Source: Roseinatronobacter alkalisoli
GTDB taxonomy: Bacteria > Pseudomonadota > Alphaproteobacteria > Rhodobacterales > Rhodobacteraceae
Reading direction: 5' to 3'
DNA: 64,000 nt
Assembly (NCBI RefSeq): GCF_028745735.1
Contig: NZ_JAQZSM010000012.1
Coordinates: forward strand, 1-64,000
A model generated the notes under the pieces. That model saw only the letters and a list, made by a program, of their open reading frames with translations. It had not been told where the DNA came from and ran no database searches. Every line of letters starts with the position of its first letter. Within the stretch, counting starts at the first letter, position 1. Position numbers and translations under genes: made by a program. Positions 4,241 to 27,022 of this stretch are shown piece by piece.

Positions 4241-4250
4241 ATACATACAT
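4241..4250. promoter_or_regulatory. Imperfect GntR-type operator upstream of metF
   Basis: ATACATACAT matches 8 of 10 bases of the ATGTATACAT palindrome found elsewhere in the window. It lies 31 bases upstream of the metF start and 50 bases from the perfect copy at 4301-4310. Confidence 0.45.
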
Positions 4251-4300
4251 GCACGATTAATAGCAATAAAAAATGTGTTTTCACTAAAATAATAGGCTTA

Positions 4301-4310
4301 ATGTATACAT
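4301..4310. promoter_or_regulatory. GntR/FCD operator palindrome (perfect) between GntR gene and metF
   Basis: A perfect ATGTATACAT palindrome lies 91 bases upstream of the metF start and just after the GntR stop. The GTATAC core with flanking A/T fits the binding sites of FadR-subfamily GntR regulators. The same word occurs at 14079-14088 and 26142-26151, in front of the ABC operon and ligM. Confidence 0.65.
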
Positions 4311-4317
4311 GAAGCAA

Positions 4318-5067
4318 CTATCCGACGACCAGCCCCAAGGCCGCAAGCGGGGGCGCCTGACCGATATCTGTAACGAATATCTGCTGAATATTGGCCCGTG
4401 CGGCGCCTGTATGTTCGCGCGCCAGCGCTTCGGCGCGTGCGCCCTGACGTGCGGCGATCGCGTCAATCATCGCATGGTGTTGCGCATGCGCGGGCGCAAG
4501 GGTGGATACAAGAGCCTCTATCTGCGTCTTGTAGGGCAGGAAGGCCGAAGGCGCGGCAAAGGGCAGACGAACCACACGCGCGATTTCTTCTTCCAGCACC
4601 TTGCTGCCCGCCAATCTGGCCAGCATGTAGTGAAATTCGTCATTCAACTGCGAATAGCGTTCAAGATCGGCATCTTCCGGATTGGCCCCGAAACAGGAAT
4701 CCAGTTGCGCAAGAATGCACCGGATTCCGGCCATTTTTTCAGAGCAGACGCCCCGCTCTGCTGCCAGCCGTGCGGCAGTCCCTTCCAGAACGCCGCGCAA
4801 TTCGATCATGTCCAGCACATCGGCGACCGCAAAACTGCGTACGACAAAACCACCCGCGCGGGTGCGAACCAGCAACCCTTCTTCCGCCAGCCGTGACAAG
4901 GCTTCGCGCACCGGCGTCCGCGAAATGTCAAGTTCTTCGGCAAGGGACACTTCATACAGCCGCGTTCCGCCCGGATACTCCCCGTTCAGGATACGCTGGC
5001 GCAGGGCGATCTGCGCGCGCAGGGCGTGGGTACGCGCACCTTGCCTGTTTGATTCTGTTCCATCCAT
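4318..5067 (-). CDS. GntR-family transcriptional regulator with FCD domain (paralogue 1)
   Basis: 249 residues. An N-terminal winged helix (about residues 15-80) contains LAEELDISRTPVREALSRLAEEGLL, the hallmark GntR recognition segment. An FCD ligand-binding domain follows, with ELRGVLEGTAARLAAERG, LNDEFHYMLARLAG and AREHTGAARANI, whose Asp/His residues usually hold a metal. It is close to the second regulator at 26235-26966, roughly 70 percent identical by eye over the first 90 residues. It is the last gene of the ABC-transport run (29 bases after the flotillin gene) and lies directly upstream of the metF unit with operators between. It probably represses the aromatic regulon and releases on binding a pathway intermediate; the ligand is unknown. 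Confidence 0.9.
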   Translation of the reverse strand: MDGTESNRQGARTHALRAQIALRQRILNGEYPGGTRLYEVSLAEELDISRTPVREALSRLAEEGLLVRTRAGGFVVRSFAVADVLDMIELRGVLEGTAARLAAERGVCSEKMAGIRCILAQLDSCFGANPEDADLERYSQLNDEFHYMLARLAGSKVLEEEIARVVRLPFAAPSAFLPYKTQIEALVSTLAPAHAQHHAMIDAIAARQGARAEALAREHTGAARANIQQIFVTDIGQAPPLAALGLVVG

Positions 5068-5096
5068 CATGGCCCCCTTTCCGGCTGGTTGCGGAA

Positions 5097-6641
5097 TTAT
5101 TCCTTATGGTCATGCTGACGGCGGCGGGTGTTATCATAGCGGATGTCATCATGGACCCGTTCCAGCAGGCGGCTCAGGCCCGGTGCGTGGACCGTCTGTT
5201 CCAGAACCGATTCCAGCGCCTGCAGGATGGCCCCGCGCGATCCTTCGACCGTCCCTACCTGTGTGACATTGATATTGCCGATCTTCTCGGCGGGTTTGAC
5301 CATTTCGGCGACGATCTTCGGCATGGCTTCCAGTCGCGCCATTTCGGCTTGATGCGCCAGTGATTCCGGTGATCTGCCGTTTTCCGCCTTGATATGCGCT
5401 TCCAGTGCAGTGGTTTCGGCCTGGCGCTGTTTCAGATGGGCCTGCGCGTGCAGGTCTGCGGTTTCCAGCTTATCCGCAGCCATCTTGCGAGTGCTGGCGG
5501 CAGCAATTTCGCTGCGGCGCGCTGCGGCTTCGGCATCGGCCTCTGCAGCGATCAGCGACAGCGCGCGGCGGCGCAGGGCTTCGGCCTCGGCGCGGGCGGT
5601 TTCCACGGATTCCTGTGCGCGCACCGCTTCGGCGCGGGCCAGGTCGGCTTCGGCCATGGCGCGGCTTTCTTCCTGACTTTTGTTGGCGACCATCACCGCG
5701 CGGTCCTGTTCGGCGATTTCAAGCGCGCGGGCACGGGTGATCTCAGCTTCCCGGATGGCTTGTTCGCGGGCAATGTCTGCGGCGCGAATGCCTTGTTCCA
5801 TGTGAATGCGTGCTTCGGCCGCAGCGCGTTCGGCATCCGCCTTGGCGCGGGCGACTTCCGCGATCTGGGCCGACATCAGTGCTTCGACCTGCTGGGCCTG
5901 CGCAATCTCGGCGCGGCGTTCTTCCAGTTCGATGTCAAGTTGCAGACGCGCGGCTTCCATCGCGGCGCGGCGGACACTGACGCGCGTCTCCCCCTCAATC
6001 TCGGCGCGGTCGCGTTTGGACTGGGCAATCACCTGCGACAGCTTGCGCAGCCCTTCAGCGTTGAAGGCGTTGTTTTCATCCAGCGCGGCAAAGGGGGTCT
6101 GGTCCAGTGCGGTCAGGGCAACCGCGTCCAGTTGCAGCCCATAGCGGGTGACATGCGGGGCAATGGCATCGCGTATGGCGCTGGCAAATTCCGCACGCCC
6201 TTCATGCAGGTCATCCATGCTGGACCGCGCGGCCACCGCGCGCATGGCGTCAATGAACATCCCTTCGACAAGGGCGCGCAATTCTTCGGGCTGGAAACTG
6301 CGGCGACCAAGGGCCTGCGCGGCCCGGGCCACGGCGGCGTCTTCGGGGGGGACGGACAGATAGAATTCCGCGCCCACATCGATGCGCAGCCTGTCGCGTG
6401 TGATCAGGGCATGGTCACCGGCGCGCTGCACATCCAGCCGGATGGATTGCATGTTGACGCGCGCCACTTCGTGAAACCACGGCAGCGACAACACGCCCCC
6501 TTCGATTACAACGCGCCGCCCGCCGATGCCGGTACGCACCAGGCTGACGGCGTTGCTGGCGCGTTCATAGAAGGCAGCGGCCAGCGCGATCAGCGCGGCC
6601 AGTACCACGATCAGTACGATGATCCAGAAAATAGTTGTCAT
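5097..6641 (-). CDS. Flotillin-like SPFH/band-7 membrane scaffold protein
   Basis: 514 residues. One membrane segment (about residues 4-26, IFWIIVLIVVLAALIALAAA) is followed by an SPFH domain (about 30-200). A long Ala/Glu/Arg-rich coiled coil runs from about 210 to 420 with repeated EAEITRARALEIAE-type heptads, and the C-terminal domain holds KIGNINVTQVG. This is the layout of bacterial flotillins (YqiK/FloT type), which assemble membrane microdomains. It starts 33 bases after the SDR gene and ends 29 bases before the GntR gene, all on one strand, so it seems co-transcribed with an importer and an aldehyde dehydrogenase. The usual NfeD partner is absent. Why a flotillin sits in a catabolic operon is unclear; organising the importer is one guess. 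Confidence 0.88.
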   Translation of the reverse strand: MTTIFWIIVLIVVLAALIALAAAFYERASNAVSLVRTGIGGRRVVIEGGVLSLPWFHEVARVNMQSIRLDVQRAGDHALITRDRLRIDVGAEFYLSVPPEDAAVARAAQALGRRSFQPEELRALVEGMFIDAMRAVAARSSMDDLHEGRAEFASAIRDAIAPHVTRYGLQLDAVALTALDQTPFAALDENNAFNAEGLRKLSQVIAQSKRDRAEIEGETRVSVRRAAMEAARLQLDIELEERRAEIAQAQQVEALMSAQIAEVARAKADAERAAAEARIHMEQGIRAADIAREQAIREAEITRARALEIAEQDRAVMVANKSQEESRAMAEADLARAEAVRAQESVETARAEAEALRRRALSLIAAEADAEAAARRSEIAAASTRKMAADKLETADLHAQAHLKQRQAETTALEAHIKAENGRSPESLAHQAEMARLEAMPKIVAEMVKPAEKIGNINVTQVGTVEGSRGAILQALESVLEQTVHAPGLSRLLERVHDDIRYDNTRRRQHDHKE

Positions 6642-6674
6642 CCTCTTGGTCCTCTCTCGCCAGCGTTGCTTTTG

Positions 6675-7466
6675 TCAAAGCCCGTCCAGGCTGGTGATTA
6701 TCCGGGCTGAAAGCCCCCCGTCTGCGGCCAGATTGGCCCCTGTCAGCCCCAGCGACAGGTCTGACAGTAAAAACAGCGCTGCGCGCGCGGCAGTATCGGT
6801 GCCGGATGCGGCATCCTGACCGCTGGCCGCCACAATATCCGGCGGCAGGCGCCCGTCATGGCTGGCCGGTGTCAGTGCATTGATGCGGATGCTGCGATCC
6901 GCCCGGTTGTGGCATTGTGCCATGACCCATGCCAGCATGGCCCAGCCCGCAGTGCGGGTGGCGCGGTCCGGTTCGGCCAGAAGCCCCCAGCGCGCAACAA
7001 ACCCGCCCAGATCATCCCAGCGCAGCGCCGCTGCCGCGCGGGTTTCGCCAAGCCGGGCCTGCCATGTGCCATGCATGGGCGTGGCGCAGGCCAGAATTGC
7101 CGCGCCATGCGCAAGTTTCGGGGCCAAAGCCTGTGTCAGATGGCGCGGGGCCAGAAGACTGCGCGCCAGTGTCAGTTCCGGCCCGCCTGTTCCGGGGTCC
7201 GGCAGAAGCGCCAGCCCGTCAATACCATCAGGCAAGGCATGAGCTGCCGCATCAAGCGCTGCGGGATCGTTCAGATCCGTGTGGTAAAGCGCACTTACCC
7301 CGTCGAACAGTTTGCGGTCATCCACGCCCAGCACTTCGGCCCCTGCAGCTTCCGCATAGAGCGCCACAGCCCGTCCCAGCCCGCTGCCGGAGCCAAGCAC
7401 CACCACCCGCTTGCCTGCAAGCAGCAGGGGTGGGACGCTGGCAAGGGGGAGTGATGCGGCGGTCAT
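6675..7466 (-). CDS. SDR-fold protein, probably lacking the classical catalytic Tyr-Lys
   Basis: 263 residues with an N-terminal Rossmann motif (VVVLGSGSGLGRAVALY) and the DD-x-x cofactor region that follows. A late RINALTPAS and TGANLAADGG match the SDR C-terminal signature. Where the catalytic Ser...YxxxK should be, the sequence reads ILACATPMHGTWQARLGETR, with no YxxxK. The start ATG at 7466 sits one base after the aldehyde dehydrogenase stop (TGATATG), which decides against the longer frame and suggests coupled translation. It may bind NAD(P) without classic SDR chemistry, or use other residues. The substrate is unknown. Confidence 0.8.
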   Translation of the reverse strand: MTAASLPLASVPPLLLAGKRVVVLGSGSGLGRAVALYAEAAGAEVLGVDDRKLFDGVSALYHTDLNDPAALDAAAHALPDGIDGLALLPDPGTGGPELTLARSLLAPRHLTQALAPKLAHGAAILACATPMHGTWQARLGETRAAAALRWDDLGGFVARWGLLAEPDRATRTAGWAMLAWVMAQCHNRADRSIRINALTPASHDGRLPPDIVAASGQDAASGTDTAARAALFLLSDLSLGLTGANLAADGGLSARIITSLDGL

Positions 7467-7467
7467 A

Positions 7468-8940
7468 TCAGAAGACCGGCGGGAAGGGACGGCCGCCACG
7501 GTCCAGCGTGATCCAGCGCGTTTCGGTGAATGTTTCCACCGCCCAGCGCCCGCCATGCCGCCCAAGCCCCGATGCCTTGGACCCGCCAAAAGGCACATGC
7601 GGTTCGTCATTCACGGATGAACAGTTCACATGGCACATGCCGGTTTCCAGACGTTGCGCCATGGCCAGCGCGCGGGCTTCGTCGCTGGACATGATACCCG
7701 CCGACAGCCCGTATTCAGTGTCATTATTAAGGGCGATGGCGTCGTCATCGGTGCGGAACGGAATAACCGGCACAACCGGCCCGAAGGTTTCATCCTGATA
7801 GATCAGCATGTCGGGGGTCACGCCCGTCAGGATGGTCGGTTCGACAAAACGGCCATTGATCCCACCGCCGACAACCACCTGCGCGCCCTTGGCGATGGCA
7901 TCGTCAAGCTGCGCCTTGACGCGCGCCACCTGCCGGTCGTTGATCAGCGGACCGATTACATTGGCCTTGTCGGCAGTATCGCCCACTTTCAGTTTCGCGG
8001 CACGTGCGGCGAATTTTTCCAGAAATTCCGGAAAAATGCTTTCCTGCACCAGCACTTTTTCAACGCTCATGCAGATCTGGCCCTGATGCATGAAACTGCC
8101 GAAATTCGCGGCCTGCGTGGCGCGTTCCATATCGGCATCTTCCAGAACGATCAGACTGTCCTTGCCACCCAGTTCGACGCAGCATTTCTTCAGATGCGCG
8201 CCGGATTTGGCGGCGATGGCGCGGCCCACTGGCGTTGATCCGGTGAAGGACACGCCTTTGACCAGTGGATTTTCAATCATCTCATCGCCCATGTCGGCGA
8301 CTGTATCGCGCGAACAGGTGATGACATTGAAAACGCCTGCCGGAATGCCCGCTTCTTCCAACACCTCTGCGAAGAAGATGCCGCCAAGATAGGGCGTATC
8401 CTCTGATGGTTTCAGGACAATCGTGTTGCCGGAAGCCAGCGCAAAGGCAAAGCCGCGCGCGGTCAGGATGCCGGGGAAGTTCCATGGGCTGATAACCGAA
8501 ATAACCCCCATCGGAAACCTGACGGCGGTGGACATCTTGCCATATTCGCTGGGCATGACATCGCCCTGCGCATTATAGCAGGTCGCAGCGGCGGACCGGA
8601 ACACTTCGGGGATGTAATGTGCCTCAAACGCGCCCTTGCCATACCATCCACCGCCTTCGGCCTGAATGGCGGCGATGAAATCAGCGGTGCGGCGTTCAAA
8701 TACATCGGCAATGCGGTTCATAAGTTTCGCGCGTTCGCTGAACTTGGCGGCAGCCCAATCAGGAAAGGCCTTATGCGCCGCCTCAATTGCGGCGCGGGCG
8801 TCGGCGCGGGTGCCGTCGGGCGCTTCCGCCCACAGGCTGCCGTCATTGGGGTTCAGGTCCGCGAAATTGCGCGCGGCCTTGACCCATTGTCCGCCAATAT
8901 ACATGCCGCGCAGGGTTTTGGGGTGTTTTGCATCAAGCAT
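7468..8940 (-). CDS. Aldehyde dehydrogenase, aromatic-aldehyde (vanillin/benzaldehyde) type
   Basis: 490 residues. Cofactor segment VISVISPWNFPGILTARGFA, glycine loop SFTGSTPVGRAI, general-base Glu in CVELGGKDS, nucleophilic Cys in HQGQICMS, and the C-terminal FGGSKASGLGRHGGRWAVETF followed by TETRWITL. That ending resembles vanillin and benzaldehyde dehydrogenases, so oxidation of an aromatic aldehyde to its acid is likely given the LigM/LigAB genes, though substrate range cannot be proved from sequence. The start has GGAGAGATAAG before it. It begins one base after the livF stop and is followed after one base by the SDR gene, so it belongs to the transport operon. Confidence 0.9.
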   Translation of the reverse strand: MLDAKHPKTLRGMYIGGQWVKAARNFADLNPNDGSLWAEAPDGTRADARAAIEAAHKAFPDWAAAKFSERAKLMNRIADVFERRTADFIAAIQAEGGGWYGKGAFEAHYIPEVFRSAAATCYNAQGDVMPSEYGKMSTAVRFPMGVISVISPWNFPGILTARGFAFALASGNTIVLKPSEDTPYLGGIFFAEVLEEAGIPAGVFNVITCSRDTVADMGDEMIENPLVKGVSFTGSTPVGRAIAAKSGAHLKKCCVELGGKDSLIVLEDADMERATQAANFGSFMHQGQICMSVEKVLVQESIFPEFLEKFAARAAKLKVGDTADKANVIGPLINDRQVARVKAQLDDAIAKGAQVVVGGGINGRFVEPTILTGVTPDMLIYQDETFGPVVPVIPFRTDDDAIALNNDTEYGLSAGIMSSDEARALAMAQRLETGMCHVNCSSVNDEPHVPFGGSKASGLGRHGGRWAVETFTETRWITLDRGGRPFPPVF

Positions 8941-8941
8941 C

Positions 8942-10141
8942 TTATCTCTCCGTGCGGTCGAATTGGGTTGATCCGGGGCGGCGGCGGTAAATTTCCACCT
9001 TGCCGCCCGGTGTGGGGGCCACCTGTGCGGGTTGGTTTGCCGCAGGGCGCGCGTCCTCCGGGGTTGTGCGCGGCTTCATGGTGCTCAGGCGCGACGCGGG
9101 GCGCAGGGCGGGCATGGTTAACGGGGTGTCTGTGGCAGGCATGTGCGCGGCGCGCGCGGCGTCTTCCATTTCGGCCAGCAATTTGCGCAGCGGGTCGGGG
9201 GTGGCCCGGTCGTGTCTGGTCCGGGCCGGGGTGGTAGTGGTGTGCGCAGTCGTCGGGCGCATGTCACGCGCAGGCAGCGATTGCTGGGCGGCGCGCGATA
9301 CCAGCGCGGTAATGTCCAGCCCCGACACCTGCGATGCAGATTGTGTGGTTGCCGTTTTTTGCCGGACGGTAACCGCAGGGGGTGTCACAGATGCGGCGGG
9401 TTTTGCCGTTTGCGCGGGTGTGGATTTTGCCCCGCCCCCGCCCAGATAGGCCGCCTGAACCGCAGGGTCGCTGCGCAGCACATCTGCGCGTTCCTCGCGC
9501 AGGATTTCACCGTTTTCCAGCAAATAGCCACGGTCGGCAATCCCAAGGCTAAGGCGGGCATTTTGTTCCACCAGCAAAATGCCAAGCCCCGCTTCGCGCA
9601 CAGCCTTCAGGTTCTGGAACAATTCCCTGGACAACAGTGGCGACAACCCAAGCGAGGGTTCGTCCAGCATCAGGATTGTCGGGTTCGACATCATCGCGCG
9701 GCCGATGGCGACCATCTGCTGTTCACCCCCCGACATGGTGCGCACAGTTTGCCCCGCGCGCTCGGCCAGTTTGGGGAACAGCCCGATCAGACGGTCATAA
9801 TTGGCTTGCGCATCTTCGCGGGCGCGTTCCGGGTTCGCGCCCAGCATCAGGTTTTCGCGCACGCTTAGGTCTGCGAACACGCCGCGCCCTTCGGGCACCA
9901 GCGCCACGCCGCGTTCCACCACTTTATGCGGCGGAAGGCCCAGAAGCCCCTCGCCATTCATGGACATGGCACCGGTGACGCGGCCTTCGCAAATTCCGGC
10001 GATGGATTTCAGAACCGTGGATTTTCCCGCGCCATTGGCGCCCAGAATGACAACAATTTCACCCGGTTTCGTATACAGGCTGACGCCGTCCAACGCGCGG
10101 TGTTTGCCATAGGTGACGCTTAGTCCATGGAGTTCAAGCAT
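8942..10141 (-). CDS. livF: Branched-chain-type ABC transporter ATPase LivF with long C-terminal extension
   Basis: 399 residues, against about 235 for the family. Residues 1-235 are a complete ATPase: Walker A GANGAGKST, signature TMSGGEQQMVAIGRA, Walker B ILMLDEPSLGLSP, and the switch His replaced by Gln in VEQN, as normal for LivF. After AAYLGGGG comes a tail of about 160 residues rich in Ala, Pro, Thr and Arg. It has no recognised domain, one possible helix (PLRKLLAEMEDAARAAHM) and a basic end with YRRRPGSTQFDR. The start overlaps the end of livG by 8 bases; ATG 10147 is an alternative. The uptake system fits HAAT-type import of aromatic acids, by context only. Confidence 0.88.
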   Translation of the reverse strand: MLELHGLSVTYGKHRALDGVSLYTKPGEIVVILGANGAGKSTVLKSIAGICEGRVTGAMSMNGEGLLGLPPHKVVERGVALVPEGRGVFADLSVRENLMLGANPERAREDAQANYDRLIGLFPKLAERAGQTVRTMSGGEQQMVAIGRAMMSNPTILMLDEPSLGLSPLLSRELFQNLKAVREAGLGILLVEQNARLSLGIADRGYLLENGEILREERADVLRSDPAVQAAYLGGGGAKSTPAQTAKPAASVTPPAVTVRQKTATTQSASQVSGLDITALVSRAAQQSLPARDMRPTTAHTTTTPARTRHDRATPDPLRKLLAEMEDAARAAHMPATDTPLTMPALRPASRLSTMKPRTTPEDARPAANQPAQVAPTPGGKVEIYRRRPGSTQFDRTER

Positions 10142-10868
10142 CTTCATCAGCCCCCAGATAGGCGCGGATGACTTCCGCATCTGACAAGACATCTGCGGGC
10201 GTGCCCTCGGCAATCTTGCAGCCAGATGACATGACCACGCAGCGGTCGCACAGGCTGCGGATGGCATCCATCACATGTTCGACCAGAATGACCGTGCGCC
10301 CGTCTTCGCGCAGCGACCGGATCAGGTCGATCCCGGTTTGCAATTCGGTCGGGTTCAGCCCTGCCAGCCATTCATCCAGCAACAGCACTTCCGGTTCACA
10401 AGCCAGCGCGCGCGCAAGCTCCACCCGTTTGGTGTTGATATAAGTCAGCGACGATACCGGCACATTCATGACGCCCCCAAGGCCCACACGGTCCAGCAGG
10501 GTTTGTGCGTAGCGTTCTGCCTCTCCTTTCCAGCGGCGGCGGTGGCCGAAGGCGGCGCCCGCCACGACATTTTCAATGACCGTCAGTTCCGGCAGCAGGC
10601 GCACCAGCTGAAATGTGCGCGCGACACCCATTTGTGCGATGCGGTGCGCGGGTTTTCCCGCCACATCCTGCCCGTTTAGCCGGATCACGCCTGCGCTGGG
10701 CGGAAATGTCCCCGAGATCATGTTGATCATGGTGGATTTGCCCGACCCGTTGGGGCCGATAATGCCCAGAACCTCATGCTGGGTCACGTCAAAGCTCATG
10801 TCATTGACGGCCACCAGACCGCCGAAGCGTTTGGTTACATTGCGCACTTCCAGAACAACACGTGCCAT
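10134..10868 (-). CDS. livG: Branched-chain-type ABC transporter ATPase LivG
   Basis: 244 residues. Walker A GPNGSGKSTMINMISG, Walker B LLLDEWLAGLNPTE and switch His in LVEHVMD are visible. The signature region reads LTYINTKRVELARALA rather than the canonical LSGGQ, so the signature motif is strongly altered. That is unusual and worth noting, because LivG normally carries LSYGQQRRLEIARAL. It directly follows livM with no gap and overlaps livF. With LivF it powers import by the LivHM channel. Confidence 0.9.
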   Translation of the reverse strand: MARVVLEVRNVTKRFGGLVAVNDMSFDVTQHEVLGIIGPNGSGKSTMINMISGTFPPSAGVIRLNGQDVAGKPAHRIAQMGVARTFQLVRLLPELTVIENVVAGAAFGHRRRWKGEAERYAQTLLDRVGLGGVMNVPVSSLTYINTKRVELARALACEPEVLLLDEWLAGLNPTELQTGIDLIRSLREDGRTVILVEHVMDAIRSLCDRCVVMSSGCKIAEGTPADVLSDAEVIRAYLGADEDA

Positions 10869-11795
10869 TCAGTGCCCCCCTTGCCCGAAGCGGTGTTTCA
10901 GCCGTGCCTGAAGGCCGACAACCCCGCCCGGCAGAACATAGACGATCAGCAGAAAGGCCAGCCCCAGCAGCAAAAGTGTCTGGTTGGGTGCGTGGCGGGA
11001 AATGAATTCCCACAGCAAGGTGAAGGGAATGACACCTGCCACTGGCCCCCATAACCGCCCCGTTCCCCCGAGAAGTGCCATGATCACCACCTGAAAGGAC
11101 AGGATCGGCGCGAATGCGGTTGATGGTTCAATATAGATATACCGTGGTGCCAGCATGGCCCCGACTATGGCCGCCGCGGCACCTGACACCATGAACAGCA
11201 GCACCTTGGCCAGCGCGGTGTTGATGCCCGAATGCTTTGCCACGGTTTCGTCATTGCCGATGATGCGCAGCGCAAATCCCAGCCGTGACCGCCCGATCAG
11301 CCAGCCCACCAGAAACACCAGTGCGGCCATCCCCAGCAATTGCCAGTAAATGTCGCGTTCGGTGATGGAGGTCAGGACATACATGCCGCGCTGCCCGGTG
11401 CGGTTCTGCACCCATGTCACCAACTGGCGTACCAGTTCGGCAAGACCCAGCGTGAAGATGACGAAATATACCCCCGACAGCCGCAGCGTGACCATGCCGA
11501 CCAGCCCCGCTAGCCCCGCACCCAATACACCCGCGATCAGAGGCAGCGACCAGTAGGGCATGGTCTGGAACCCGTACCCGGTAACAAAGGTGCCAAGTCC
11601 GAAGAAAGCCGCCGTCGCAAGCGAGATATAATGCGTCGGCCCCGAAAACAGCGCCCAACTGGTGGCCAGCACCGTGAACATGGCCATGGTAGTGGCAATC
11701 GACAGAATGTAGCCCGTGTCATAGAAGGGCAGCAATGCCACCACCCCAAAGGCCATCGCGGACAGGATCAGGTTCCGGATTTCACGCGCGCTCAT
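10869..11795 (-). CDS. livM: Branched-chain-type ABC transporter permease LivM
   Basis: 308 residues with about nine hydrophobic segments and the family regions GPTHYISLATAAFFGLGTF, RLSGVYFVIFTLGLAELVRQ and ALLGGTGRLWGPVAGVIP. It is one of two inner-membrane channel subunits. The start overlaps the stop of livH by four bases (ATGA). The solute is unknown; the operon also encodes an aromatic-type aldehyde dehydrogenase. Confidence 0.92.
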   Translation of the reverse strand: MSAREIRNLILSAMAFGVVALLPFYDTGYILSIATTMAMFTVLATSWALFSGPTHYISLATAAFFGLGTFVTGYGFQTMPYWSLPLIAGVLGAGLAGLVGMVTLRLSGVYFVIFTLGLAELVRQLVTWVQNRTGQRGMYVLTSITERDIYWQLLGMAALVFLVGWLIGRSRLGFALRIIGNDETVAKHSGINTALAKVLLFMVSGAAAAIVGAMLAPRYIYIEPSTAFAPILSFQVVIMALLGGTGRLWGPVAGVIPFTLLWEFISRHAPNQTLLLLGLAFLLIVYVLPGGVVGLQARLKHRFGQGGH

Positions 11796-12661
11796 GTTGG
11801 TTGCTTTCCGAACAGGCCCTGCGGGCGGAACAACAATACGCCCAGAAACAGCACATAGGCCGCCGCCAGCGTCAGGCCGGGGTCGATGATCCGCGCCACG
11901 AAGGTTTCCGCAATTCCAAGGATCAGCGCAGCTACGATTGTGCCGCGAATGTCACCGACACCGCCCATGATGACGATGATCAGCGCCTTCATGGTGAACA
12001 GCACTCCGACGGATGCATCCAGCGTGAAGAACATGGAAATCAGCGCCCCGCCGGTTGCCGTGACTGCCCCGCCAAGACCAAAGGCCAGCGCCGACACCGC
12101 TGTTACGTCAATCCCGACCAGACGCGCGGAATCAGGGCTGACAGCAACCGCCCGCATATTCAGACCTGCGCGCGTGTAGCTTAGCCATAACCACAGCCCC
12201 GCCGCGATAAGGGACGCGATGGCAAAGGCCACAACGCGGTTCTGCCCGTAGGATGACCCGAAAATATCTACCCGTTGGGCAAGGTAGGAATAGTTGAAAT
12301 ACCCGCCACCGAACATCCAGCTCATGATGCCGACCAGCGCGAAGGACAGTCCGAACGTGGCCAGAATGCTGTCCACTTCCAGCGCACCGCGCGATTTTGC
12401 ACGCTTGACCAGCGGGCGCAGCATGATCCGATAGATCAGCCAGTTCACCACAAACGCCACCGGTGCCACCACGATAAGCGCCGCAATCGGACTAACCTGA
12501 CCGGCGGTATAGACCCAGAATGCAGCGAATCCCCCGGCAACCAGCATTTCGCCATTGGCCAGATTCATGATGCGGGCAACGCCATATTGCAGGTTCAGTC
12601 CCATCGCGATCAACGCATAGGTCCCCCCCAGCAACAGGCCGGTAATCAGGATGAAAAACAT
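11792..12661 (-). CDS. livH: Branched-chain-type ABC transporter permease LivH
   Basis: 289 residues. The N-terminal LITGLLLGGTYALIAMGLNLQYGVARIMNLANGEMLVAGGFAA is the LivH signature, and VIMGGVGDIRGTIVAALILG is the conserved late loop. It lies 80 bases downstream of the binding-protein gene, with a strong hairpin in that gap, and overlaps livM by four bases. Confidence 0.92.
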   Translation of the reverse strand: MFFILITGLLLGGTYALIAMGLNLQYGVARIMNLANGEMLVAGGFAAFWVYTAGQVSPIAALIVVAPVAFVVNWLIYRIMLRPLVKRAKSRGALEVDSILATFGLSFALVGIMSWMFGGGYFNYSYLAQRVDIFGSSYGQNRVVAFAIASLIAAGLWLWLSYTRAGLNMRAVAVSPDSARLVGIDVTAVSALAFGLGGAVTATGGALISMFFTLDASVGVLFTMKALIIVIMGGVGDIRGTIVAALILGIAETFVARIIDPGLTLAAAYVLFLGVLLFRPQGLFGKQPT

Positions 12662-12741: not shown

Positions 12742-13950
12742 TCAGTCCCAGCCGTCTTTCAGGACCACATCGGAAACACCGTCACGCCCCCGCGCGGCAA
12801 CGCCGCGGAACACGCCGTCCTGCCACTGGCCGACTGTCCAGTAGCGTTCATTGTCGTTCATGTCGTTGAACTGAACCGGGCCAAGGACGGTTTCATAGCT
12901 GTTGGAATTGTCCTGCAGGTATTCCATGACAACGGCGCGGTCCCTGGACCCTGTCGCCTCGATCGCTTGTCCAAGGATTTCCAGCGTCGCATAGGTTGAT
13001 GCCGATGCCCAGAAATCCGGCCCTTGCCCTGCGAGTTCCTGATGCGCTTCGGCGAAAGCCTGGAATGCGGGATCGTCGGGGTTCACGCCGCCCATGCCCA
13101 TGACCCCTTCGGCCTGTTGCCCGAAGCGTCCGTAATAGGATGGGAACGCCGTTGCCACGGCGGTAAAGAACACCGAGGGCGCGAAATCCTGCACGATCGC
13201 CTGATCGGTCAGTGCGAACGTGTCACCGGGATAGGACCAAGCGATAAACGCATCGGGATTTGCCGCCTTGGCCCCGTCAATGATGGGCGCAATGTCCTGC
13301 GTGCCCAGCGGATACGAGGTCTGATAGACGATCTCAAACCCGTTTTCTTCCAGCACTGCGCGGGAAATCCCCGACATTTCAATACCGAAAGCATCAGCGA
13401 CATTTACCAGCGCAACGCGGTTGCCGATGTCACCGGATTCGCGCAGATCAACAAGCACCTGTGCGGTATCTTCGGCCATGACGCCCGTTCGGCCCAGCAC
13501 GAAGAACATGCCCGGAAACTGTGCCGACAGTTCAGGTTGCTGGTTGGTGACATTGGTGCCGGTGATCTGCGGATAGCCAAGCTGGCTGAAGATCGGTGCC
13601 GCGGCAAGGTTCAGACCGGTCGAATAGGGCGCGACCATGAAATCCACACGGTCCTGTGTCGCCAAGCGTTGGGCGGCCTGAATGGCCTGTTGCGGGTTGG
13701 TCTGGTCGTCATACTCGATCAGTTCAATCAGCGCGGGACCATCGGCAAGCTGCAACCCGCCCGCTTCATTGGTCTGATGCACCCAAAGCCGCACAGCGGG
13801 CCAATGCGTGACATCTGCGCCACCGGCAAGCGGGCCGGTCTTGGGCGCAGCAGCCCCGAGTTTGATAGCATCCTGGGCCGATGCGGCACCAAGGCTTCCC
13901 ATCATCACCGCCACTGCGGCAACTGTCGTCATCAGTGATCTGCGTTTCAT
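12742..13950 (-). CDS. Periplasmic substrate-binding protein of the Liv-type ABC transporter
   Basis: 402 residues. A Sec signal peptide (MKRRSLMTTVAAVAVMMGSLG, cut near ASA-QD) precedes a Peripla_BP_6 fold beginning IKLGAAAPKTGPLAGG, with AAQRLATQDRVDFMVAPYSTG and the two-lobed layout of amide/branched-chain-type receptors. The start at 13950 follows GGGAGGAGAAAAC. It is the first gene of the run down to the GntR gene at 4318. A perfect ATGTATACAT palindrome lies 129 bases upstream, and a weaker one farther up. The ligand is unknown; aromatic acids are plausible, because related receptors in aromatic-degrading bacteria bind them. Confidence 0.9.
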   Translation of the reverse strand: MKRRSLMTTVAAVAVMMGSLGAASAQDAIKLGAAAPKTGPLAGGADVTHWPAVRLWVHQTNEAGGLQLADGPALIELIEYDDQTNPQQAIQAAQRLATQDRVDFMVAPYSTGLNLAAAPIFSQLGYPQITGTNVTNQQPELSAQFPGMFFVLGRTGVMAEDTAQVLVDLRESGDIGNRVALVNVADAFGIEMSGISRAVLEENGFEIVYQTSYPLGTQDIAPIIDGAKAANPDAFIAWSYPGDTFALTDQAIVQDFAPSVFFTAVATAFPSYYGRFGQQAEGVMGMGGVNPDDPAFQAFAEAHQELAGQGPDFWASASTYATLEILGQAIEATGSRDRAVVMEYLQDNSNSYETVLGPVQFNDMNDNERYWTVGQWQDGVFRGVAARGRDGVSDVVLKDGWD

Positions 13951-14078: not shown

Positions 14079-14088
14079 ATGTATACAT
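14079..14088. promoter_or_regulatory. GntR/FCD operator palindrome (perfect) upstream of the ABC operon
   Basis: ATGTATACAT, identical to the words at 4301-4310 and 26142-26151. It lies in the 222-base gap between the TRAP genes and the binding-protein gene, 129 bases before the latter's start codon. Confidence 0.65.
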
Positions 14089-14140: not shown

Positions 14141-14150
14141 ATGTACACAA
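14141..14150. promoter_or_regulatory. Possible second operator upstream of the ABC operon
   Basis: ATGTACACAA matches the palindrome at 8 of 10 positions and lies 62 bases from the perfect copy. Weak on its own. Confidence 0.3.
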
Positions 14151-15484: not shown

Positions 15485-15987
15485 ATGCTGTCCTGTCTGT
15501 CTTTGTCCGGACCGGCCAGTGCCTTTGCAGCTTCCAGCAGAAGCACCATAGAAAACAGGCCCGCTGATATTGCGACCGCAAACTGGAACGGGTGTTTGGG
15601 TATGCGCATCATATTGGTGATATCGCCCCAGCGCAGGCTGCCCGAGGCATAGATATAGGCCCGCCACGCAACGAACCCCAGCAGGGCCGCCCCCGTCAAA
15701 TGCACCAGCACAGTCAGCCAGCGCATTGACGGGTGGTCCAGCCATCGCGCAAAAATATCAACCGATACATGTCCCCGCACAATTGCCGTATATGGCAACC
15801 CGAAGGCCACGATCAGCGACATTGCAAGTTCGGTCAGTTCATAGCCGCCCCGGAAGGGGCGACCAAAGAAGTAGCGCATGGTGATTTCATAAATCACCAG
15901 AAACATCAGCCCGACCAGCACCAGACCGCCCGCATACGCGATAAGCCGCAATAGCCGTTCGAACCAGCGTTCGATCTGTGCCAGCAT
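15481..15987 (-). CDS. dctQ: TRAP transporter small permease (DctQ type)
   Basis: 168 residues with four membrane segments and the DctQ landmarks VIYEITMRYFFGRPFRGGYELTELAMSLIVAFGLPY and GHVSVDIF. It starts 11 bases after the dctP stop and overlaps dctM by four bases. The upstream part of the open frame overlaps dctP and is not expected to be translated. Confidence 0.9.
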   Translation of the reverse strand: MLAQIERWFERLLRLIAYAGGLVLVGLMFLVIYEITMRYFFGRPFRGGYELTELAMSLIVAFGLPYTAIVRGHVSVDIFARWLDHPSMRWLTVLVHLTGAALLGFVAWRAYIYASGSLRWGDITNMMRIPKHPFQFAVAISAGLFSMVLLLEAAKALAGPDKDRQDSI

Positions 15988-15998
15988 TGTCCTTGGCC

Positions 15999-17099: not shown

Positions 17100-17109
17100 A
17101 TGTATGCAT
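17100..17109. promoter_or_regulatory. GntR-type operator (one mismatch) upstream of dctP
   Basis: ATGTATGCAT differs from ATGTATACAT at one base. It lies between the LysR stop and the dctP start in an AT-rich stretch, a sensible place for promoter control. Confidence 0.45.
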
Positions 17110-22429: not shown

Positions 22430-22750
22430 CTATCCGCCAGTCAGCGGGGTAATCCGGTCGGCGCGGAATGTATCCGCCAGCCGCGTCAATGTGATGCTTT
22501 GCACCACACCACCGCTGAAAAACGGATCACCTTCGGCAAAGGCGCGGGCGCGCGCTTCGTTGTCAGCCTGCAGAATGCCGAAATTTCCGGTCCCTTGTCC
22601 CGCGTCATCCCAAATTGCGCTGCCGGTCAGCACCACGGCCAGACCACCCCCGCCGGATGCGACCCAGTCCCGGTGCTGCGGGCGCAATTCGTCGCGCAGC
22701 GCCGCCGTTTCTGGCCTATCATGATGCTTGCAGATCATCAGAAAGAACAT
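22430..22750 (-). CDS. YciI-family small protein
   Basis: 106 residues. The opening MFFLMICKHHDRPETAALRDELRPQHRDWV and the later AEGDPFFSGGVVQSITL match the YciI/YCII fold, which has a conserved His-Asp pair (here in RPQHRDW and AEGDPF). The start ATG shares one base with the ligB stop (TGATG), so translation is coupled. YciI-like proteins occur in several aromatic and chloroaromatic pathways; its reaction here is unknown. Confidence 0.85.
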   Translation of the reverse strand: MFFLMICKHHDRPETAALRDELRPQHRDWVASGGGGLAVVLTGSAIWDDAGQGTGNFGILQADNEARARAFAEGDPFFSGGVVQSITLTRLADTFRADRITPLTGG

Positions 22751-23592
22751 CAGCGCATATTCTCCAGCAGGACCATGCCTGCACCTGTCATTGATGCAGG
22801 TGCGAAATAATGATCGAACAGGGTGTTGACCGTTTCATCCATGCAGCCGCGCATAACCAGCCACATGATAAGTTCTGCGCCCTCGGACCCGAATTCTTCG
22901 ACATAATCTTCGCGGGACATGGTGCGATAGCGTTCGGGGTCGGACCCGATGCGCGCAATCCATTCGCGATCAGCGGTCGGGTTGATGAACCCGGCCCGCG
23001 CGCCCTGCAACTGATGTGACAGCCCGCCCGTGCCCATGACCAGCACCTTTTCATCTGTGGGATAGCTTTCGATGGCGCGGCGCAACAAGCGACCAAGATC
23101 CCACATGCGCTGTGGTGTCGGTATCGGATACTGAATTGTATTTATCAGGATCGGCACAACCTTGACCGGCCATGCCTCGGGCCTGCCAAAGACCAGTTCC
23201 ATGGGAACCTGTAGCCCATGGTCCACGTCCAGTTCGCGGCAGATCAGCGGGTCGAAATGCCCCTCGACCATGCGATCGGCCAGATGCCATGCAAAATCAT
23301 CCGCGCCCTGAAAATCCGGCACCGCGCGCGGCCCCCACCCTTCATCGGCGGGGCGATAGTTTTCTGCGACCCCAAGCGCGAGTGTCGGCACGCGGTCCAG
23401 AAAAAAGGAATTCCCGTGGTCATTATAAACCACCACGGCAATATCGGGTTTATGGTCCGCCACCCATTTCTGTGCCGGGATATAACCATCGAAAAACGGT
23501 TTCCATTCGGCGCTGTCGCGCAATCCCTTGTCCAGCGCCGCCGCGATGGAGGGAACGTGGCTGGTGCCCAGCCCTGCAAGCAATTTAGCCAT
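22750..23592 (-). CDS. ligB: Protocatechuate 4,5-dioxygenase beta (catalytic) subunit, LigB type
   Basis: 280 residues, as in LigB. The iron ligands of the type II extradiol family are all in place: His12 (GLGTSHVPS), the His at about 59 (YNDHGNSFF) and a Glu late in the chain (SEGAELIMW). The catalytic His (GGLSHQLQG) and DVDHGLQVP are also present. The enzyme opens protocatechuate or related catechols (gallate, 3-O-methylgallate) between C4 and C5 with Fe(II) and O2. Overlap with ligA is 8 bases. A single-chain gallate dioxygenase (DesB type, about 420 residues) is ruled out by the separate alpha subunit. Confidence 0.93.
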   Translation of the reverse strand: MAKLLAGLGTSHVPSIAAALDKGLRDSAEWKPFFDGYIPAQKWVADHKPDIAVVVYNDHGNSFFLDRVPTLALGVAENYRPADEGWGPRAVPDFQGADDFAWHLADRMVEGHFDPLICRELDVDHGLQVPMELVFGRPEAWPVKVVPILINTIQYPIPTPQRMWDLGRLLRRAIESYPTDEKVLVMGTGGLSHQLQGARAGFINPTADREWIARIGSDPERYRTMSREDYVEEFGSEGAELIMWLVMRGCMDETVNTLFDHYFAPASMTGAGMVLLENMR

Positions 23593-23935
23593 TTGTCACT
23601 TTCCCCAACCGTGTGTCCAGAAATTCCTGCAGTTCCATTCCCGCCTGTGCTGCCCCGATTGCACGAATTGGGGTCGGGTCAACGGCTGAAATTTTCAGGA
23701 TATAGAACAGGTTGCCCCCCAGTCGCACCATTTCCGCCCAATCGCGGGATTTCACAGCGTTCCGCTGTTCCGGTGTCAGGGCGAAACGGTCAAGATAGGC
23801 ATCCTCATCTGCCAGGAATGCCGCGCGCCCGTCTGGTGTGCTCAGCCCCATTGCCATCTTGTTCAGCGCATAGCCCGCATTGCTGCGGGGGCGATCAAAT
23901 AGCGGGGTGTCGGGAATACGGTCCGCATCGGTCAT
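23585..23935 (-). CDS. ligA: Protocatechuate 4,5-dioxygenase alpha subunit, LigA type
   Basis: 116 residues. PRSNAGYALNKMAMGLSTPDGRAAFLADEDAYLDRFALTPEQ, followed by RDWAEMVRLGGNLFYILKI, is the LigA signature. The subunit covers the LigB active site. It is 12 bases downstream of the alpha/beta hydrolase gene and overlaps ligB, so hydrolase-ligA-ligB-YciI form one unit. Confidence 0.92.
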   Translation of the reverse strand: MTDADRIPDTPLFDRPRSNAGYALNKMAMGLSTPDGRAAFLADEDAYLDRFALTPEQRNAVKSRDWAEMVRLGGNLFYILKISAVDPTPIRAIGAAQAGMELQEFLDTRLGKVTNG

Positions 23936-23947: not shown

Positions 23948-24649
23948 TCATTCGGGGTTCAGGCTGCGCACCCAATCTGACAGCAGCCCGGCCACAGCGG
24001 CGGGTTGTTCGACAGGGGCGAAATGGCCAGCATTTTCAACAATTTCCAGCCGTGCCTGCGGGCAAAGCTGCGCGATCGCTTCGTGTTGGGCAATGGGCGA
24101 CCATTGGTCCTGCCGCCCGACGATCAACAGCATTGGCCCGGTATAGGCGCTGATTGTCGCGCTGGCATCGGGGCGGTCCAGAAGTGCGCGCATCTGGCGT
24201 TCGTGAATTTCCGGCGTCATGCGGCAGACCATGCGCGTCAGCCCGTCCAGCACCTCCGGATCGGGTGTCAGCCCTTCGGCCATCATACCGGGCAACCATG
24301 CACTGGCCAGCCCGTCCATGCCCTGCGCATAAGCCAGGTCAATCATGGACTGGCGCTTCGCCCCTTCACCATCCTTGCGCGGGTGCATGCCGGTGTTCAA
24401 CAATGCCATGGCGCGAATGCGTTCGGGCGCAATATGCGCCATTTCCATTGCCACGCGCCCACCCATGGAATGGCCGGCAACCACCAGCGGGCCGTCATGG
24501 TGTGCCAGCAGGTCATTGGCCATGGCGGTTATGCTGGGCTGGGTCGTTACATCGGCCACAGATACGGGCAGGTCATTCAGCGCGGTCCGGGTGGCTTCCC
24601 AGACATGGCCATCGCAGACCAGCCCCGGTATCAGCAGGATACGGGTCAT
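23948..24649 (-). CDS. Alpha/beta-fold hydrolase
   Basis: 233 residues. The nucleophile elbow VVAGHSMGG, the oxyanion region ILLIPGLVCDG, the acid in IVGRQDQWSP and the His in ENAGHFAPVEQP make a complete triad. It probably cleaves a C-C or ester bond of a pathway compound. It is first in the unit with ligA and ligB. The start at 24649 has AGGGA eight bases before it; the ATG at 24664 does not. A terminator lies between it and the ligM-like gene upstream. Confidence 0.88.
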   Translation of the reverse strand: MTRILLIPGLVCDGHVWEATRTALNDLPVSVADVTTQPSITAMANDLLAHHDGPLVVAGHSMGGRVAMEMAHIAPERIRAMALLNTGMHPRKDGEGAKRQSMIDLAYAQGMDGLASAWLPGMMAEGLTPDPEVLDGLTRMVCRMTPEIHERQMRALLDRPDASATISAYTGPMLLIVGRQDQWSPIAQHEAIAQLCPQARLEIVENAGHFAPVEQPAAVAGLLSDWVRSLNPE

Positions 24650-24675
24650 GGGGCGTTCCCTCATGTTCGAGGTCG

Positions 24676-24712: not shown

Positions 24713-26119
24713 TTAGCTGCTTTTGGAGCGCCAGCTATCCGCATAGTTTTCGCGCGCTTCACTTGCGTAAGGCGTGGGCGAAACCCGCACACGGATTTCC
24801 GTCTGCTTGTGCTGCTCGGTAGAGGTTTTGCCGGTCGTTTCCGGCTCACCCCATTTCATGGTCAGCACATCGCCCACCTGCACCGACTGATCCACAACAC
24901 CAAGGCTAAGGACACAGCGTTCATTGAAGCTGTAGCCGTTGAACATGGACATGCCGACCATCTTGTCGCCATGCATGACCATATCCGCGCTGGAAGATGC
25001 GTAGTTGGGCTGCGGGAAGTCGATCCACTTGTAGGGTGTGCCCTGCTCGAACGCGGAGGCGATGACTTTCAGCACATCTTCGCGGTTCCATTCAAACGTG
25101 ACCTTCTTGCGGTTGGTGGCCGACCCTTTCATCGATTCCAGTGCGGATTTACCGATGAAATCGGGTTTCTTCCAGCCGATATAGAAATCATAGCCCAGTT
25201 CAAACGGGTTGACGTAGTAGTCTTCGATATTGTCGGAAACGAAGCTGCCGCCGATGGCGCCTGATGCTTCATAGCTGTCAGCGCCCAGCCAGTCGCGGTA
25301 ATCCGCCAGCATGCCGTCACCGGTATAGATGCCCGGTAGGGGCGACGGAATCCAGCCCGATTCCAGCGTGTTGGTCGAATAGGCGCGGCTGCCGCATTGC
25401 ACCAGATCAACGCCCGCATCGCGCGCAGCCTGCAGGATGGTGGAATGGATGTAATCCTTGTCCTTATACGGACCCCAGATTTCAAGACCCGGCGCGCCCG
25501 ACATGCCGTGACGCAGTGCCTGCACTTTTTTCGATCCGACATTGATCCAGTCAACATGGAAGAACTTGATGTCCTGAACCGGACCACCATTCATTTTCTC
25601 GAAGATCTTCGGCGCGTCCGGCCCCTGAATCTGGAAACGGTAATGTTCGCGCAGAACACGTTCACCTTCGGGGCGCGACGGGCTGCGGGGGTCATAGCGC
25701 AGGCGCACATTCCAGTTGCCATAAGCGGCACAGAACATCAGCCAGTTCGATGTCGGCGCGCGGCCAACAAGGATGTATTTGTCTTCGCGCTCGCGGAAGA
25801 TGATGTGGTCACCAATGACATGGCCATTGGGCGTGACCGGAACGTAGTGCTTTGCGCGGTTCAGGTCAAAATTGGCGAAGCTGTTGATGCCGTGATGGGA
25901 CAGGAAGTCGGTTGCCTGCGGCCCTTCGACGATCAGTTCGTCCATATGGTGGCTTTGGTCAAACAGCACTGCGGATTTCCGCCATGCTTCCTGTTCTACC
26001 CGCCAGTTGGAAAATTCGGGTGCGACAACCGGGTAAACATACATCCCGACTTTGGAGTTGCGCAGCATTTGCACCGGATTGCCGGTCGCCGCCATTTTGG
26101 TGGCAAGGCTTTGTGTCAT
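24713..26119 (-). CDS. ligM: LigM-type tetrahydrofolate-dependent aryl O-demethylase (GcvT/aminomethyltransferase family)
   Basis: 468 residues, close to LigM. The segment FDQSHHM (residues 53-59) matches the active-site start of the family. Tyr247 lies in RAYSTNTLESGWIPSPLP, the diagnostic block; Tyr247 is the key residue reported for LigM of Sphingobium. LigM moves the methoxy methyl of vanillate or 3-O-methylgallate to tetrahydrofolate, giving a catechol and 5-methyl-THF. The start at 26119 follows GGGAGGATTTCAA. Operators lie at 26142 and 26218. It stands between the ligAB unit and a GntR gene. DmdA (DMSP demethylase) and GcvT are relatives, but DmdA is shorter and lacks the GWIPSPLPGIYTG block. 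Confidence 0.88.
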   Translation of the reverse strand: MTQSLATKMAATGNPVQMLRNSKVGMYVYPVVAPEFSNWRVEQEAWRKSAVLFDQSHHMDELIVEGPQATDFLSHHGINSFANFDLNRAKHYVPVTPNGHVIGDHIIFREREDKYILVGRAPTSNWLMFCAAYGNWNVRLRYDPRSPSRPEGERVLREHYRFQIQGPDAPKIFEKMNGGPVQDIKFFHVDWINVGSKKVQALRHGMSGAPGLEIWGPYKDKDYIHSTILQAARDAGVDLVQCGSRAYSTNTLESGWIPSPLPGIYTGDGMLADYRDWLGADSYEASGAIGGSFVSDNIEDYYVNPFELGYDFYIGWKKPDFIGKSALESMKGSATNRKKVTFEWNREDVLKVIASAFEQGTPYKWIDFPQPNYASSSADMVMHGDKMVGMSMFNGYSFNERCVLSLGVVDQSVQVGDVLTMKWGEPETTGKTSTEQHKQTEIRVRVSPTPYASEARENYADSWRSKSS

Positions 26120-26141
26120 TTGAAATCCTCCCAGAAACATG

Positions 26142-26151
26142 ATGTATACAT
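26142..26151. promoter_or_regulatory. GntR/FCD operator palindrome (perfect) at the ligM promoter
   Basis: ATGTATACAT, 22 bases upstream of the ligM start codon. Binding here would block transcription start or early elongation. Confidence 0.7.
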
Positions 26152-26217
26152 TAAACTAAAAGAACTGCACGGTTTTGCAAGCAAAAATAACCGGTCCCCC
26201 GGTGATTTTCGGAATTT

Positions 26218-26227
26218 ATGTATACAA
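26218..26227. promoter_or_regulatory. Second operator (one mismatch) upstream of ligM
   Basis: ATGTATACAA lies 76 bases upstream of the perfect copy and 7 bases beyond the GntR stop. Two sites at about seven helical turns could be bridged by one dimer of dimers. Confidence 0.55.
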
Positions 26228-26234
26228 CAAGGGC

Positions 26235-26966
26235 CTAGCTGGACAGTAGCGCAAGGCTGGGAACGCCTTCGCGCAGCGCTGCTTCCTGTGAAAGCAGGTA
26301 TTCAACATTGCGCCGCGCTGCGCGTGCATGTTCGCGCGCCAGTGATTCGGCGCGCCCGCTTTCGCGGTGCTCAATTGCATCGATGATGGCGCGGTGTTGT
26401 TCCTGCGCGGTGCCAAGCGTTTTCTGCAACGTGTCAATCCGGGTGTGGTCATCCAGAAATGCCGAAGGCGATGCGAAGGGTAGCGCCGTCACGCGCGCGA
26501 TCTCGCGTTGCAGGATGTCACTTCCGCTCATCTTTGCAAGCAACTGATGGAATTCACTGTTCAGCGCAGAATATTCATCCATATCAATGCTTTGGCCTGA
26601 TACAACATGATCGATTTCGCGCACGACACCCTGCGCACGGGTCAGTAGCGCGGCATCCGCACCGCGTTCCGCGGCATAGCGCGCTGCGGTCCCTTCCAGA
26701 ACGCCGCGCAAATCGATTGTGTCCACGACATCTGCCAGCTTGAAGCTGCGCACAACGAACCCACCGCCCTTGGCACGTTCCAGCAGGGTTTCTTCCGCCA
26801 GTTGTGACAGCGCCGCGCGGATGGGTGTGCGGGAAATTTCCAGGTCTTCTGCCAAGGCCACTTCAAACAGGCGGGTACCGCCGGGGAACTGGCCGCTGAG
26901 GATGCGCTGGCGCAGGGTGATCAGGGCGCGCTGGGCATGCGTTGAACTGCCTGTCTGTGCGTTCAT
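26235..26966 (-). CDS. GntR-family transcriptional regulator with FCD domain (paralogue 2)
   Basis: 243 residues. The winged helix contains LAEDLEISRTPIRAALSQLAEETLL, and the FCD domain DLRGVLEGTAARYAAERG, LNSEFHQLLAKMSG and AREHARAARRNV. It is very close to the regulator at 4318-5067 throughout, so the two are duplicates. It is directly upstream of ligM on the same strand with operators on both sides, so it probably regulates itself and ligM. The start at 26966 follows GGGGTGGTGAT; ATG 26987 lies inside an operator and is unlikely. Confidence 0.9.
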   Translation of the reverse strand: MNAQTGSSTHAQRALITLRQRILSGQFPGGTRLFEVALAEDLEISRTPIRAALSQLAEETLLERAKGGGFVVRSFKLADVVDTIDLRGVLEGTAARYAAERGADAALLTRAQGVVREIDHVVSGQSIDMDEYSALNSEFHQLLAKMSGSDILQREIARVTALPFASPSAFLDDHTRIDTLQKTLGTAQEQHRAIIDAIEHRESGRAESLAREHARAARRNVEYLLSQEAALREGVPSLALLSS

Positions 26967-26977
26967 ATCACCACCCC

Positions 26978-26987
26978 GCGTATACAT
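26978..26987. promoter_or_regulatory. Operator-like site at the second GntR gene
   Basis: GCGTATACAT, 8 of 10 matches, 12 bases upstream of the GntR start codon. Confidence 0.45.
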
Positions 26988-27012
26988 GAACCGGTCCGTT
27001 GATCATACACTA

Positions 27013-27022
27013 GTGTATACAT
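27013..27022. promoter_or_regulatory. Operator (one mismatch) upstream of the second GntR gene
   Basis: GTGTATACAT, 9 of 10 matches, 35 bases from the site at 26978. The pair suggests autoregulation. Confidence 0.55.

Follow-up and report, generated by a model that had tools for sequence, protein, structure and literature searches.

The 64,000-nucleotide stretch of contig NZ_JAQZSM010000012.1 of Roseinatronobacter alkalisoli analysed here (the window, at its full length) carries copies of a palindromic 10-mer, ATGTATACAT, at five promoters. Sequence comparison supports it as one shared operator joining ligM, metF, an ATP-binding cassette (ABC) uptake operon, gntR2 and, as the weakest member, a tripartite ATP-independent periplasmic (TRAP) uptake operon; its likely reader is a GntR/FCD protein. 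The preliminary description of this DNA had proposed such a link between metF, ligM, the two transport operons and a GntR gene, and the 10-mer proved to be identical to the proven operator of a homologue, Atu1419 of Agrobacterium fabrum, a GntR/FCD protein described as acting as a tetramer and as repressing metF- and ligM-like genes along with the gene that encodes it (PMC7797058). With a probability of about 0.8, we take the sites to be operators of Atu1419-type repressors, whose tetramer would bridge pairs of sites and would be released by N5,N10-methylene-tetrahydrofolate (methylene-THF). The account of Atu1419 draws on electrophoretic mobility shift assays, crystals (PDB 6z74, 6za0, 6za3, 6za7 and 6zab) and reporter assays, and states that a change at G3 abolished binding, that two palindromes can be looped together and that methylene-THF releases the protein (PMC7797058).

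A palindrome scan of the window found the perfect copies (4301, 14079, 26142) and the one-mismatch copies (17100, 26218, 27013) at the positions previously given for them, all six intergenic in our gene models. Among the weaker sites proposed at the same time, 14141 and 26978 have two mismatches with G3 and C8 intact and were retained, but 4241 (ATACATACAT, two mismatches) was rejected as an operator since it lacks G3, and was replaced by an overlapping site at 4237–4246 that keeps both bases; in genus relatives, the second metF site likewise lies 62–64 bp from the first. The operators of the window, given without strand, are as follows:

26142..26151, ligM operator, perfect ATGTATACAT, 19 bp ahead of the ligM start codon (26122)
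26218..26227, second ligM operator, ATGTATACAA, 76 bp from the first, between the gntR2 stop and ligM
27013..27022, gntR2 operator, GTGTATACAT, one mismatch
26978..26987, second gntR2 operator, GCGTATACAT, 35 bp from the first
4301..4310, metF operator, perfect ATGTATACAT, between the gntR1 stop and metF
4237..4246, second metF operator, GTGAATACAT, 64 bp from the first
14079..14088, livK (ABC operon) operator, perfect ATGTATACAT
14141..14150, second livK operator, ATGTACACAA, 62 bp from the first, kept in genomes G020 and G012
17100..17109, dctP (TRAP operon) operator, ATGTATGCAT, one mismatch, kept in G020 and G012
16919..16928, weak dctP partner site, ATGTATGCAA, within dctP, 181 bp from 17100, doubtful because G027 has the same site without the upstream one

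A chance origin of these sites was rejected. With up to one mismatch, the window has six matches, against a mean of 0.47 and a maximum of 4 in 100 shuffles. Across the 4.84-Mb genome, the perfect palindrome occurs three times, always in the window, and places with up to one mismatch number 48, including the six. When 160 composition-matched palindromes were counted in the window, ATGTATACAT ranked first at zero and at up to one mismatch; at up to two mismatches, 35 of the 160 equalled its count, and therefore weak sites are meaningful only beside strong ones. The possibility, raised in the preliminary description, that unrelated intergenic regions might hold the motif just as often was not borne out in the 29 examined of the 34 one-mismatch places outside the window that keep G3 and C8: 26 lay inside open reading frames (ORFs; mechanically called, at least 100 amino acids) and three outside them (L008, L209, and L192, ahead of a malate dehydrogenase gene). 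None of these three had a partner within 250 bp, and three of the 26 places inside ORFs had a two-mismatch neighbour. On the basis of these 29 of 34 places, additional members of the regulon outside the window were rejected.

The conservation of the operator was followed in the best 80 of 519 regulator relatives (named genome loci L075–L154), gathered by regulator alignment alone. A site was counted when it had up to one mismatch and lay within 350 bp upstream, a shared intergenic stretch counting for both genes. Rows were left out when the query start fell after residue 25, coverage was below 40%, identity was below the floor (45% for GntR, 60% for LigM, 55% for MetF, 50% for LivK, 33% for the TRAP binding protein and 24% for others) or the upstream stretch was a duplicate (552 rows reduced to 535). 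Under these rules, a site stood upstream of ligM in 53 of 58 cases, of metF in 24 of 34, of gntR in 45 of 81 and of an alpha/beta hydrolase gene in 13 of 22, and none was found for the livG controls (0/41), nor for livF (0/26), lysR (0/15), livH (0/13) and ald (0/9). Over all loci, which include some fetched for having the palindrome, 63 of 73 ligM genes had a site, and 159 control palindromes of like composition gave a mean of 0.5 and a maximum of 8. Within the genus, at least two perfect palindromes were present in all 11 genomes with gntR2 and in none of the 26 without it (four of which have one), and the 34 palindromes of the former all precede gntR2, ligM, metF or livK.

The same kind of operator also precedes vanA, the gene for a Rieske vanillate demethylase (PF19112 in L144), at L144:8847–11719, and at L139, L142, L146, L147, L149, L151–L153, L183 and L185. 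At these loci, a GntR gene sits between vanA and a vanB-like reductase gene, and in eight of the 11 a one-mismatch copy is found within vanA too, 292–305 bp from the upstream copy. Perfect operators were also seen in Pseudooceanicola (L085:1878 and 3875; L090:1986 and 3972), those of L085 lying beside TRAP dctP and between acyl-CoA synthetase and enoyl-CoA hydratase genes.

The sites are not only conserved but paired. A second site with up to two mismatches and with G3 and C8 occurs within 200 bp at all five window promoters, against a mean of 0.39 and a maximum of three of the five in 2000 sets of shuffled flanks. Across species, the pair spacings gather at 62–65, 72–76, 83–86, 106–110, 115–118, 136 and 186–189 bp, and the best pair of the gntR2 clade is 35 or 36 bp apart in all 15 members that have one. 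When the spacings were reduced to 41 states per clade and promoter, R was 0.58 at 10.5 bp, a value reached in none of 50,000 simulations; R rose to 0.68 for the 38 states without 35/36 bp, an omission made post hoc, and was 0.64 for the 15 within-clade spacing changes alone. In a scan from 6 to 20 bp, the best period was 10.4 bp for the 41 states and 10.45 bp without 35/36 bp. These tests were designed after the spacings had been seen, and two pairs counted under two genes were left out; the spacings of the vanA promoters (72–74, 292–294 and 305 bp) stood outside them. Whole helical turns put both sites on one face of the DNA, as a bridging tetramer would require, and loops of 6–8 turns are known for lac (PMC5081198).

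Two regulator genes of the expected type stand in the window:

26235..26966, minus strand, gntR2, GntR/FCD regulator, 54% identical to Atu1419
4318..5070, minus strand, gntR1, GntR/FCD regulator, last gene of the livK run, 56% identical to Atu1419

Both proteins score above the gathering thresholds for the GntR winged helix-turn-helix (HTH) and the FCD domain, and both have 6z74 as best match among solved structures (E 3.3e-73 and 6.7e-73). The side chains that contact DNA (R31, S44, R45, T46 and R49) are all present in the two proteins, as are the four zinc ligands (N137, H141, H192 and H214); from the ten listed effector and zinc residues, GntR2 keeps eight and GntR1 nine. In 105 related GntRs, R45, R86, Y133, N137, H141, H192 and H214 are invariant. 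Operator placement compares well with that of the Atu1419 type, being perfect at ligM and metF and with one mismatch at gntR2; gntR1 has no operator of its own and would rely on the livK site. The two regulators, previously described as near-identical, share 53% identity, and a recent local duplication of them was rejected, as gntR1 and gntR2 fall in separate clades with 100/100 support each; an old sister relation is compatible with the data (p-AU 0.44). An assignment of the sites to the FadR subfamily was not supported either: the FadR-subgroup consensus is given as TGGTNxACCA (PMC7797058), an operator of that type is absent, the sites being ATGTATACAT, and the closest solved protein is placed in the VanR group, which is marked by an FCD domain of six helices without domain swap.

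These residues bear on the chief rival explanation, by which the operator and repressors would be the same but the inducer would be an aromatic acid (vanillate, syringate or 3-O-methylgallate) instead of methylene-THF. VanR2 of Pseudomonas sp. NGC7, likewise a GntR repressor of aromatic O-demethylation, is reported to answer to syringate and 3-O-methylgallate (PMC12314914), and the mobile-loop residues K175 and R183 of the Atu1419 pocket do vary. However, the 105 GntRs show little or no variation at the zinc residues and those of the inner pocket, and Atu1419 is described as affected by methylene-THF and not by tetrahydrofolate or methyl-THF (PMC7797058). VanR2 also differs in its aromatic inducers, its VanAB-type enzyme and its operator, GGGATCCC (PMC12314914), which occurs nowhere in the window, a weak argument with only 1.6 matches expected by chance. 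We regard an aromatic inducer as unlikely.

The genes that would be governed by the operators, all on the minus strand, are the following:

24713..26122, ligM, vanillate/3-O-methylgallate O-demethylase (NF047885, 635.8 bits, cut-off 580)
23948..24664, alpha/beta hydrolase, downstream of ligM
23585..23935, ligA-like dioxygenase subunit (PF07746)
22750..23592, ligB-like class III extradiol dioxygenase
22430..22750, YCII-domain protein
3314..4210, metF-like gene, matching methylene-THF reductase models weakly and no Pfam family
1804..3270, aldehyde dehydrogenase after metF; of the 25 matches listed out of 43, no equivalog exceeds its cut-off
12742..13950, livK-type binding protein, opening the ABC run
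8942..12661, livH, livM, livG and livF
5097..8940, aldehyde dehydrogenase, short-chain dehydrogenase/reductase (SDR) and flotillin, same run, with gntR1 last; best SDR match coniferyl-alcohol dehydrogenase, below cut-off
14174..17039, TRAP transporter dctM, dctQ and dctP

The metF-like product is 57% identical to that of a regulator-adjacent gene of Agrobacterium salinitolerans (L131). From livKHMGF through ald, SDR and flotillin to gntR1, the genes form a one-strand run in which gaps do not exceed about 80 bp; gntR1 being its last gene, the livK operator would also control gntR1.

The positions of the sites, their conservation, pairing and phasing, the kept residues and the linkage of the genes are read from the sequences. 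By analogy with Atu1419, from which binding, tetramer, looping, repression and effector are carried over to these two proteins, GntR2, and GntR1 with the same specificity, would bind ATGTATACAT as a dimer, and a tetramer would hold a pair of sites, in most cases separated by 6 or 7 helical turns, the small loop shutting the promoter. LigM would demethylate vanillate-type aromatics and pass the methyl group to THF, and MetF would turn it into methylene-THF. The latter would free the repressor, upon which ligM-ligAB, metF-ald and gntR2 would rise, as would both uptake operons (ABC and TRAP) in this lineage.

The share of each regulator was approached through the genomes that have one or both. 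The gntR1 gene was found in the window genome, G012, G020 and G147 (the draft genome of L120), and the livK operator pair is present in these four and in none of three close genus members without gntR1; it is kept at 62–64 bp in three of them, and in G147 a pair of 63 bp stands at a different position. The preliminary description had suggested that duplicated regulators might have split the regulon between them. In a clean form of this idea, GntR1 would serve livK (with TRAP and metF), and GntR2 ligM and itself; the co-occurrence of the livK pair with gntR1 and the place of gntR1 at the end of the livK run speak for it. Yet G147, where no close homologue other than the GntR1 type was detected, has pairs at both ligM (74 bp) and livK (63 bp); genomes with only GntR2 have pairs at ligM, gntR2 and metF; and the named recognition contacts are the same in both proteins. 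Moreover, the metF operator is kept in G007, G011, G019, G026 and G027, which have no gntR1 between metF and the flotillin gene, and therefore GntR2 can serve metF. With one operator word common to both types, overlapping regulons are simpler to expect. A clean division thus appears improbable, and what stands of the suggestion is its milder form, that the livK pair follows gntR1. A perfect site at C20 of G147 lies inside an ORF and was rejected.

Within the set of genus members compared, an operator at the ABC and TRAP operons was confined to those with gntR1. Those without gntR1 have instead the box WTAACC-N4-GGTTAW (up to one mismatch), which we take to be the PcaQ consensus, at livK (3/3) and dctP (4/4). 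Its positions, and the window gene whose product is a possible reader of it, are:

L160:15755 and 18809, L211:4778, L171:4799 and 7871, L172:7677 and L165:668, PcaQ-like boxes of gntR1-less relatives
17168..18451, minus strand, PcaQ-like LysR with two HTH_1 stretches ahead of the substrate domain (best match the PcaQ model TIGR02424, 197 bits, below the cut-off of 304)

The box is absent from the livK and dctP promoters of the window, G020 and G012, the dctP of the latter two having only a two-mismatch match at another position. Further one-mismatch matches were seen at L163:761 and L164:450, and the LysR is about 55–67% identical to its counterparts in gntR1-less genus members, compared with 88–90% for livK. 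By another explanation, the ABC and TRAP sites would be chance or decaying matches, with the PcaQ-like LysR still in charge. The mismatch in the TRAP site and the position of its partner within coding sequence, the partner being seen in G027 without an upstream site, agree with this; the livK pairs at 62–64 bp in three genomes and at 63 bp elsewhere in G147 do not, nor does the lack of any PcaQ-like box with up to two mismatches within 300 bp of livK in the four gntR1 genomes, and we consider this explanation very unlikely. A livK search of 248 family genomes gave 22 that matched at E <= 1e-100; the 23 distant livK rows (48–60% identity; two from the same genome, L236 dropped as partial, and L232 with only 122 bp upstream) held one two-mismatch GntR-like match (L220) and no PcaQ-like box. 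In Rhizobiales, the operator was seen beside Liv-type genes near ligM at L103:18501, L104:18502, L122:17135 and L095:588 and 696 (L095 with one mismatch); the binding proteins of L103 and L095 match PF13458, and the Liv-type genes of L104 and L122 were judged by position. The regulon may have gained ABC uptake genes repeatedly.

Several observations weigh against the reading of the sites as operators of Atu1419-type repressors. A site with up to one mismatch was found at only one of 17 dctP homologues and was missing from 36 of 81 gntR 5' regions and from five of 58 ligM genes (L110, L141, L143, L148 and L154); the TRAP site itself is imperfect and was found only in the window genome, G020 and G012; and metF of G147 (L243) has no site with up to two mismatches that keeps G3 and C8. 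As for geometry, stragglers such as 50, 98, 102, 128 and 180 bp occur among the spacings; those of 50, 98 and 102 bp, for example, lie off whole turns, as do the 35–36-bp pair of gntR2, which has a different geometry, and one vanA promoter pair of 152 bp. Spacings shared by descent are not independent, and a less refined test of the phasing, made on the medians of 25 clades, gave p 0.06 (0.01 without 35/36 bp). Finally, K175 and R183 are changed in GntR2, and promoter scans detected no sigma-70-like promoter near any site.

Other features of the region were noted alongside. A terminator-like minus-strand hairpin at 26190–26203, one of three found against 1.1 in shuffles, lies between the two ligM operators and could end gntR2 transcription before ligM. 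A benzoylformate-decarboxylase-like thiamine pyrophosphate enzyme (20427–22139), in a cluster shared with ligM and two aldehyde dehydrogenase genes, could supply aryl-glyoxylate to the pathway. The LivF ATPase (8942–10150) has a long C-terminal extension, its ABC-domain matches stopping near residue 240 of 402.

The operator and the repressor type are already known. The regulon of the window resembles that of Atu1419 in its identical operator, 54–56% identical regulators with the same contacts, ligM- and metF-like targets, self-regulation and paired sites; it differs in having two regulators and five promoters, in including ligAB and both uptake operons (ABC and TRAP), and in a shorter spacing of 62–76 bp, compared with the 190 bp stated for Atu1419 and 200 bp, start to start, in A. 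salinitolerans L131. BusR of Streptococcus agalactiae is likewise described as a tetrameric GntR-family regulator reading two sites, but with sites 22 bp apart, an RCK_C domain, cyclic di-AMP as ligand and no loop seen (PMC8517857). PcaQ of Sinorhizobium meliloti, whose site before the ABC uptake operon pcaMNVWX is given as ATAaccgggggatTAT, also runs the uptake of a ring compound (PMC5002191); it belongs to another family, LysR, and a box of its kind stands at livK and dctP of gntR1-less relatives but not at the window promoters. DesR of Sphingobium SYK-6 controls ligM, but is of the MarR family (PMC6888825). No report of the regulon outside A. fabrum was recognised among the open-access papers listed, and as far as these show, what is new is its occurrence across Rhodobacterales and Rhizobiales, the phasing by helical turns, the use at vanA and the presence of the operator at uptake operons.

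A broader interpretation, which we put forward tentatively, is that of a widespread alphaproteobacterial one-carbon regulon reading methylene-THF, made both via LigM and MetF and via the formaldehyde released by the Rieske enzyme (VanAB); one phased operator would therefore stand before ligM, metF and, in a Rhizobium clade, vanA, and the uptake operons would have exchanged a PcaQ-like LysR box for the GntR operator, with a second regulator ending the ABC run. An operator known from one species becomes that of a regulon in dozens of Rhodobacterales and Rhizobiales genomes, and comparison provides evidence that sites are bridged and helically phased in a GntR family in which looping was previously demonstrated for one protein. 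Which regulator's site the uptake operons bear differs between some species and their relatives, and the operators predict which genes would respond to a folate one-carbon signal during the breakdown of lignin aromatics.

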